64,000 bases of DNA from Brachyhypopomus gauderio. Taxonomy: Eukaryota; Chordata; Actinopteri; Gymnotiformes; Hypopomidae. The notes below the pieces were generated by a model. The model was given only the letters and a program-made list of their open reading frames with translations. It was not told where the DNA came from and made no database searches. The DNA lies in the NCBI RefSeq assembly GCF_052324685.1, contig NC_135220.1, positions 3,276,216 through 3,340,215 on the forward strand. The letters are read 5' to 3'. The position numbers and the translations under genes were made by a program. Below, piece by piece: positions 41,770 to 44,700 of this stretch (its first letter is position 1; each line of letters starts with the position of its first letter).

Positions 41770-44700
41770 ATGGCCGCTGTGAGGATGGCCGCTGTCCGCT
41801 GCGCTGTGATCGGAGTCGTGTGGCTCAGTGTTCTCAGTGGTGGACGATGCGACGAGCAAGTACCCCTGATGATGTGGTCCAGCAATGGGTAATTATTTAC
41901 CGCATAACCATGTTCCTCGTGTTCATTCGACGTTGGGATATTTTTGTCAGGTTGTTGAGGGAGCTAGTCGGCTAGGTGGTTCGTTAGCCTGCAGCTTCCC
42001 CTGCGATGGTGTCCGTCTCTAGACGAGCTGTGTGCGGGTTCATCTACACCCTTACATCTACACCCGGCGGGTGGCCGTCTTCACCTTCGGGCGGTTATGT
42101 CTGTTGTGTCCATCTCCAGATTTCCGATGCCAACCCAGAGCTCCCCGCTCGCTGGTCTAACAGTGTCCGCCGGCCAGCTGGAGTCCTACCTGAGCACAGC
42201 ACTGAGCTCGGCGCCGCATAATGTCTTGGTCTTCCTCCAGGACAAGGTTAGTGGGACACACTCATCTTCACACACACACACACACACACACACACACACA
42301 CACACACACACACACACACACACACACACACACACACGAGCTGTCTTCCTCCAGGACAAGGTTAGTGGGACACACTCATCTTCACACACACACACACACG
42401 AGCTGTCTTCCTCCAGGACAAGGTTAGGGGGACACACTCATCCTCTCACACACACGAACTGTCCTCCTCCAGGACAAGGTTAGGGGGACACACTCATCCT
42501 CACACACACGAACTGTCCTCCTCCAGGACAAGGTTAGGGGGACACACTCATCTTCACACACACACACGAACTGTCCTCCTACAGGACAAGGTTAGTGGGA
42601 CACACTCATCTTCACACACACACACACACACGAGCTGTCTTCCTCCAGGACAAGGTTAGGGGGACAGACTCATCTTCGCACACACAAGCTGTCTTCCTCC
42701 AGGACAAGGTTAGGGGGACACACTCATCTTCACACACACGAACTGTCCTCCTCCAGGACAAGGTTAGTGGGACACGCTCATCTTCTCACACACACACGAG
42801 CTGCTTACAAATAAAGAAATAGTTTCTGTTCTACAACTGAATCGCTGTGGTAGAATCAGTAGAAATGATCACGCGGGTGTGACTCGATGTCCTTAACATA
42901 CTGTAAACGAACAGTGACATTGCAGCAAAGGTAAGAGTCCTTAGATGGATGCAATTAAATAATTGGATTATTCTCTCTTACTCAGATGAGTGTGGATGAC
43001 TTCACCATGTATGGTGGTGTGTTTGGAAACAAACAGAACAGTGCCTTCCCCAACCTGGAGGTGAGTGAGACCGTAGTAATACTTGCTCCTGTGTTGATGG
43101 GGAGTGTCCTTTCTTGTTGGTCTCTTTACACTGGCTTCCTGTAGAGTCTTGTTTTAACTTGCAGACCACTGCGTAGTCAGGCTCCTTTGTATGCGGCTGA
43201 TTTAGTGTATCTGTATGCAACAACGCGATGCCTAAGATTGAGTGAGCTAAACTTACTGTCTGTCCCATGTTCTTGCTTAAAGACTCGTGGAGATGGAGCA
43301 TTTCAGGTTATTGCTCAGAGACTGTGGGACAGACTCCCTCTTCCTATAAGATTGTGTGATTCTGTTGACTCATTTAAAAAGAAATTCACCTTTTCAAGCA
43401 GGTGTTTGGGCAGCAGGTGTAGGGTCTATTGACGCTTTAAAGAGTTTTATGCTATTGTCTTATGTTGTGTATTTATTGTTTTCTTGTGGTTTTTAGCATT
43501 GTAAAGCACTTAGTGGCATATGTCTGTGAAACGTGGACTATAAATAAATTTTACTTTTACTTACTGGTTGAAAGTTTCTCAGAGGCAGAGAACTCTATTT
43601 CTTCAATTTGAAGTCTGTTTCTCTAAGCTCCTGTATCTATTCAGAAGGCCCCATGTTGTACAAAAACCTACTGAGCAATCCAGTCATCTCTCTCTCTCTC
43701 TCTCTCTCTCTCTCTCTCTCTCTCTCTCTCTCTCTATCTATCTATCTATCTATCTATCTATCTATCTATCTATCTATCTATCTATCTCTCTCTCTCTCTC
43801 TCTCTCTCTCTCTCTCTCTCTCTCTCTCTCTCTCTCTCTCTCTCTCTCTCTCTCTCTCTCTCTCTCTGTAGTTCTTGTTTATACTGTTATAGTATTTCTC
43901 AGACTGTCGTTCACTCCCCGCCTCAACACTAGGTGGCGCTGCAGTCCTCGTCCTCCCTGCTGCTGCCGTCCGTGTCCTCCTTGGCCAGCGCGTCCCTCCC
44001 CTCACTTCTCCAGGAGCAGCTGGACACAGCGCCGCTCTACATGGACCCGGAAACCCTCGCCCAGCTCCGGCTCAACGCCTCTCTTCCCGCCCTGCTCATC
44101 TTCCGCCTGCCCTACAGCTCCGGGTGAGTGCCCACCTGCTGTCCATGTCCCCGCCCCCAATTTGGATGTCCCCGCCCCTGTCTACATGTCCCCGCCCCAT
44201 TGGTGTCAGCATGTGTCACGTAGCCTTAAGTCCAGCACATCGCGTAGCAGGGTTCTGGCTCGGACTGCAGAACTGGCTATGATCCAGAACAGTTTCATGC
44301 CAGATGAAAACATCTAATATAGGGTAAATCTCATCACTTAAATCAATTGAGGCTATTCAGTTGAATGAAACTGAAGCTAAACTATGTATGTATACTTGAT
44401 CTCCTCTGGACCACCCTTCTCCCCCAGGGCTGATATGATGTCTACTAAGGAGGTACTCGGTGGAAACGGTGAGGGATACACAGTGTTCGTTTGGTGCAGT
44501 TATCTAACAAAATCCAACTTTTCATTTTGCTTATCAGTCAGACTAAAATGATCAGTTTTAATAATGTAACAACGATATATAAATGTGTGTGTTTCAGATG
44601 AGGTGATTGGTCAGGTGTTGAGCATCATGAATGGCCAGTCTGTGCCGTACACGGCCATGTATACAGCTCTCCGACCCTCACGGGTAAATCATCATTCTTG

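Follow-up and report, generated by a model that had tools for sequence, protein, structure and literature searches.

How does one exon-intron boundary of a fish gene come to stand nine times in a row, and what follows for the splicing of that gene? We addressed this question with a computational analysis of a 64-kb stretch of genomic DNA (the window), in which the end of an exon recurs, together with its donor, within the following intron. With a probability of roughly 80%, we read the locus as a minisatellite of the mirage type, known from amphioxus, that arose by local duplication of the boundary and expansion of the duplicated unit, whose first donor is the one mostly used, and for which no function is needed. 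The array is, most likely, largely neutral.

Judged by the proteins that its exons resemble, the host gene of the array is atp6ap1, on the plus strand, which encodes the V-ATPase accessory subunit Ac45. Exons 1, 2, and 3 join into 107 stop-free codons, and this translation matches V-ATPase subunit S1 in five distinct PDB sequences (best E value, 9e-22), with the junction between exons 2 and 3, FLQDK/MSVDDF, free of gaps in all three of the alignments displayed. Pfam returned no family for the translation of exons 1 to 3 at an E value of 0.001 and placed the Ac45/VOA1 transmembrane domain (E value, 1e-20) in an open frame downstream, at 46183 to 46503. Our test of the frame covers exons 1 to 3, the middle exons being left unjoined. 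The donor of exon 3 lies at 43061; the acceptor of exon 4 is ambiguous, with CTAG/GTGGCGCTG at 43933 fitting equally well, and it was left out of the comparison.

The array, at 42229 to 42802, consists of nine tandem units (Table 1), each made of the last 17 to 18 bases of exon 2, the donor, GGGACACACTCATCTTC, and an AC microsatellite, (AC)n, and measuring 54 to 114 bp with the microsatellite included; the copied exon part begins at T42230 or G42229. Every unit crosses from exon into intron and carries the splice site between them. The true boundary forms one edge of the array, within the coding frame that is open when exons 1 to 3 are joined, and eight extra units lie inside intron 2. In the whole window, AGGACAAGGTTAG occurs nine times on the plus strand and never on the minus strand. 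When the AC tract is set aside, 8 of the 46 columns of the core vary, all of them outside CAGGACAAGGTTAG, and the longest pure AC run, of 34 units, is that of copy 1, the other eight copies reaching 3 to 9 units. The donor is GTTAGT in four of the nine copies (1, 2, 6, and 9) and GTTAGG in five (3, 4, 5, 7, and 8). A CAG stands 6 bases 5' of the donor in every copy, and CAG/GACAAG/GTTAG is identical in all nine, the sole departure upstream being the CTACAG of copy 6. These results bear out much of a preliminary description of the locus: the gene, the exon boundary, and the minisatellite are as claimed there, given the S1 matches and the ungapped junction, as are the retention of the real donor sequence in copies 2, 6, and 9, the drift of the other donors, and the decoy acceptor 6 bases before each donor. 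That the exon end and its donor are repeated eight more times also stands, with the copied length, put at 15 to 16 bases, corrected to 17 to 18 bases and the location, given as 42228 to 42810, corrected to 42229 to 42802.

Table 1. Features of atp6ap1 around the boundary array (positions in the window)
Feature	Positions	Strand	Description	Basis or context
Exon 1, coding part	41770 to 41888	+		Open frame; PDB match via joined exons 1 to 3
Exon 2	42120 to 42246	+	127 nt; phase 0 end, ...FLQDK	Open frame, PDB match
Intron 2	42247 to 42985	+	739 nt; array share, 556 nt	
Copy 1	42229 to 42342	+	True exon end; donor GTTAGT at 42247; (AC)34	
Copy 2	42343 to 42404	+	Donor GTTAGT at 42361; 46-base core equal to that of copy 1	
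Copy 3	42405 to 42460	+	Donor GTTAGG at 42423	
Copy 4	42461 to 42514	+	Donor GTTAGG at 42479	
Copy 5	42515 to 42572	+	Donor GTTAGG at 42533	
Copy 6	42573 to 42636	+	Donor GTTAGT at 42591; acceptor-like CTACAG	
Copy 7	42637 to 42690	+	Donor GTTAGG at 42655	
Copy 8	42691 to 42744	+	Donor GTTAGG at 42709	
Copy 9	42745 to 42802	+	Donor GTTAGT at 42763; GAGCT continues into single-copy GCTTACAAATAAAG	
Pseudo-donor AAG/GTAAGA	42931 to 42936	+	U1 pairing, -9.5, stronger than that of the true donor; 55 nt 5' of the acceptor	Outside the array
Exon 3	42986 to 43060	+	75 nt	PDB match, frame

A single tandem duplication, reaching from 42229/42230 to the GAGCTG beyond the AC tract and with a single base in common, accounts for the edges of the array. 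On the left, the array begins inside coding sequence, at CTTG/GTCTTCC. The internal junctions read GAGCTGTCTTCC, with the variants GAACTGTC and AAGCTGTC, and GAGCTGTCTTCC fuses the GAGCTG of the intron to the (G)TCTTCC of the exon through one base common to both. On the right, the edge is GAGCTGCTTAC, where the intronic GAGCTG after copy 9 leads on into single-copy sequence. The exon part, NVLVFLQDK, aligns with NVLLFLQDK of mammalian V-ATPase S1/Ac45 and is thus older than the array, which makes the exon the likely source and the intronic copies its derivatives. We suggest that a local tandem duplication at the boundary of exon 2 and intron 2 came first, that the unit then expanded to nine, with slippage or unequal exchange, possibly at the AC tracts, adding the extra copies, and that the AC tract and the variable core positions diverged afterwards; the ancestral one-copy intron would be expected to read ...CATCTTC(AC)nGAGCTGCTTAC, with a single GACAAG. 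A 230-bp period called by TRF over the array hints at block duplication. Tested directly, a duplication of copies 2 to 5 into copies 6 to 9 gained no support (identity of 0.947 at a shift of four copies versus 0.943, 0.926, and 0.932 at shifts of one to three), and the order of the copies reveals no block or neighbor structure, with shuffle fractions of 0.33 to 0.97 for shifts 1 to 5.

Why the first donor would be preferred is a separate matter. We calculated the pairing of donors with what we take to be the sequence of the 5' end of U1. The true donor and copies 2, 6, and 9 all reach -7.8 kcal/mol, and the other five copies reach -6.1; the donors of exons 1, 3, and 4 reach -6.3, -11.6, and -12.6 kcal/mol. 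At -6.1 or better, intron 2 holds, besides the true donor, eight sites in the array and the stronger one at 42931 outside it; outside the array, 463 of the 8,291 GT sites on both strands pair as well, or 2.7 per 739 nt. Pseudo-donors are thus roughly three times as dense in intron 2 as elsewhere in the window, but they are ordinary features. The picture of a spliceosome that must choose the first of nine near-identical donors is right for the DNA, as distinct from what is spliced. The difficulty may have been overstated, given how common sites of equal strength are and that a stronger one lies in the same intron. Donor strength was not supported as the cause of the choice of copy 1, since copies 2, 6, and 9 are its equals in U1 pairing. 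The accessibility of the RNA was not supported either: in local folding, the opening energy of the true donor is 6.9 at both flanks tried, where the nine donors range from 3.6 to 8.0 and from 4.5 to 7.8, so that the true donor is no more open than the decoys, and the easiest to open at both flanks is the donor of copy 2. As modeled by U1 pairing and local folding, the donor sequence itself would account for none of the preference for copy 1.

The RNA of 42229 to 42803 folds better than its shuffles (z, -3.16; 1 of 100 as good), copy 1 not being singled out. For a hairpin in a 29-nt segment, the decoy substitutions T24G, C9A, and T4C rank first, fourth, and sixth in stability among 87 substitutions, and over six contexts a fraction of 0.0001 to 0.025 of random triples does equally well. 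When the whole unit is taken with its eight core substitutions, this fraction is 0.157 and the trend lacks significance; drift toward the hairpin, an idea conceived post hoc, is kept as a lead only.

Position offers another route to the first donor. Exon definition would favor an exon of normal size, such as one of 127 nt. Ended at donors 1 to 9, exon 2 would be 127, 241, 303, 359, 413, 471, 535, 589, and 643 nt long, respectively. The first donor would thereby pair with the acceptor of exon 2 into an exon of normal size and, we infer, be used in most transcripts, the later ones needing an exon of 241 nt or more. In addition, the 34-unit AC tract 3' of the true donor may aid its use via hnRNP L, for which a preference for CA repeats (PMC3823766) and a binding that grows with the length of the AC repeat (PMC13174678) are described in the available parts of these papers.

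If a later donor were used, the AC tract was expected to be read as Thr-His repeats. This holds for donor 2, which adds 38 codons in a stop-free frame. Donors 3 to 9, all seven of them, run into a stop, which donors 3 and 4 meet in exon 3 and donors 5 to 9 within the extension itself. The frame of donor 2 is set by AC length, so other alleles could differ. Besides the donors, each extra copy offers, as CAG/GACAAG/GT, a possible in-frame exon of 6 nt encoding Asp-Lys. Mis-splicing would be predicted to yield mostly stops, and donor 2 or a GACAAG microexon would yield in-frame inserts.

These products bear on the strongest of the rival explanations, that the array is a working splicing device in which decoy donors or GACAAG microexons give rise to regulated isoforms of Ac45 and the number of repeats does the tuning. 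We consider it unlikely. It would agree with the constancy of CAG/GACAAG/GTTAG in the nine copies and with the sparing of CAGGACAAGGTTAG by the variable columns; however, the invariant core is short and the variable sites are few, so that selection need not follow. The open frame of donor 2 would suit it too, but the other seven of the eight decoy donors lead to stops. The eight microexons allow 256 combinations, 55 of which, counting the normal product, have no intron shorter than 60 nt, a minimum of our own choosing; since each microexon has 6 nt, all of them preserve the reading frame. Against this, the distance from a donor to the next acceptor is 48 to 58 nt, except for the 108 nt that the long AC tract places between donor 1 and acceptor 2, and 48 to 58 nt is short for a vertebrate intron. 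As acceptors, the extra copies have 10 to 11 pyrimidines in the 15 bases before CAG, against the 11 of the true exon 2 acceptor (exon 3, 13), and elsewhere in the window at least 11 precede 353 of 4,152 YAG sites, or 2.0 per 739 nt. A branch-like yTnAy, a loose motif given here as a raw count, lies 24 to 40 nt 5' of the AG in seven of the eight extra copies, whereas copy 2 has none within 80 nt. Finally, the arrays of amphioxus are reported to be spliced normally (PMC3087553, PMC3902484). A role of the array in making Ac45 isoforms is, from its sequence, possible but unsupported.

A specific form of the idea, in which each unit would be a splicing cassette (acceptor CTCCAG, phase 0 exon GACAAG, donor GTTAGT or GTTAGG, and mostly a branch-like CTCAT serving the next acceptor) and the array a ladder of microexons or of recursive splicing, seems to us very unlikely. 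If it were true, the Ac45 made from the ladder would carry at least one additional Asp-Lys pair, no matter which copies were spliced in, and repeat number would act as a dial.

It is quite unlikely, too, that the array, or the number of its copies, stems from an error in assembling a repetitive stretch. The stretch is rich in AC and difficult to assemble, and assembly errors due to tandem repeats are the subject, by its title, of PMC6868369; yet the units differ in eight core columns and in AC length, as they would not if one read had simply been duplicated. We regard as highly improbable that the unit stems from a dispersed repeat from which the exon end was captured. The exon part, with its mammalian counterpart, predates the array, no other copy of the unit was found in the window at up to three mismatches to its 18-base core, and the array junctions, too, would make such a capture unlikely. 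The unit had no match among viral contigs, which is what one would expect of an animal gene. An accidental resemblance between simple sequences, conceivable where AC repeats abound, is refuted, in that 18-base CCTCCAGGACAAGGTTAG has nine matches in the window at up to three mismatches, all in the array, versus 0.05 expected, and none of 100 shuffles reaches nine.

The preferred reading, a local duplication of the boundary, has precedents. By the anatomy seen in the DNA, a minisatellite across an exon-intron boundary, the atp6ap1 array is a mirage, a name that comes from amphioxus Adh3 and extends to the globins BflGb6 and BflGb9; the units measure 10 to 72 bp in Adh3 and 150 to 160 bp in BflGb6, two haplotypes having 6 and 3 of them (PMC3087553). 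PGBD5 and troponin C are added to the mirage-like cases by the excerpt of PMC3902484. To the extent that these sources describe them, the amphioxus arrays and ours are alike in being tandem copies of a boundary that carry splice signals and adjoin the true boundary; the atp6ap1 array differs in its vertebrate genome, its nine units of 54 to 114 bp, its AC microsatellite, and its possible 6-nt in-frame exon. Normal splicing and length instability are reported for the amphioxus arrays, whereas the atp6ap1 array is known from genomic DNA alone. Closer in taxonomy, human internal tandem repeats in segmental duplications are also vertebrate minisatellites at exon-intron boundaries and can create or activate splice sites (PMC2812944); as portrayed in the accessible text, they belong to recently duplicated primate genes and are supported by transcripts, in contrast to an array known from its DNA. 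PMC3443670 treats tandem genomic duplication of AGGT segments as a real way in which introns are gained and, as in atp6ap1, the copied AG/GT gives new possible pairs of splice sites, but in that model exon sequence is duplicated into a new intron, whereas here the duplication spans an existing boundary and the possible products are computed only. Human introns derived from tandem arrays are treated, by its title, in Zhuo et al. 2007 (cited in PMC3087553), and the minisatellites linked to alternative splicing in Caenorhabditis elegans are, by the available portion of PMC4039745, a different kind of repeat. Among the matches listed (titles and starts of abstracts) in the part of the literature searched, which covers few subscription journals, neither this array nor a fish case is described, and in one set of ten of these matches the word atp6ap1 is absent.

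The array looks like a clean further example of the mirages already described, not a new phenomenon. Its value would lie in being a natural counterpart of the experiment in which a 5' splice site is duplicated, a classic design: one true donor is followed by three copies in which the nine donor bases are unchanged and five in which one base differs, each preceded by the same end of the exon. On one hand, the array could reveal how far position alone decides the donor. On the other hand, it could reveal whether minisatellites at boundaries give rise to new exons, as has been proposed for the amphioxus globins (PMC3087553).

Other repeats accompany the array. The start of atp6ap1 (41770 to 41799) contains a 15-base tandem duplication, ATGGCCGCTGTGAGG ATGGCCGCTGTCCGC, with about three mismatches, two in-frame ATGs, and a 10-residue product, and the next intron of the gene has a CTCT/ATCT microsatellite (43687 to 43867). 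Nearby, a GDI frame aligns with PDB entry 1gnd, presumably the bovine protein, in two segments, where a count by eye gives 54 of 60 and 47 of 53 matching residues, in keeping with a vertebrate host. A perfect 21-bp repeat at 31687 to 31741 (2.6 copies) has TTATGCAG in every unit; reading this stretch for a duplicated acceptor revealed no supported exon adjoining it. At 2862 to 3984, a frame of 437 codons runs uninterrupted through a 23-bp minisatellite of about 50 copies, and Pfam gave it no family at an E value of 0.001. A 33-bp minisatellite of about 20 copies, for which a 65-bp period was also called, occupies 8829 to 9494, and a 54-bp unit at 7235 to 7408 is present in 3.2 copies with 98% matches and is probably recent.
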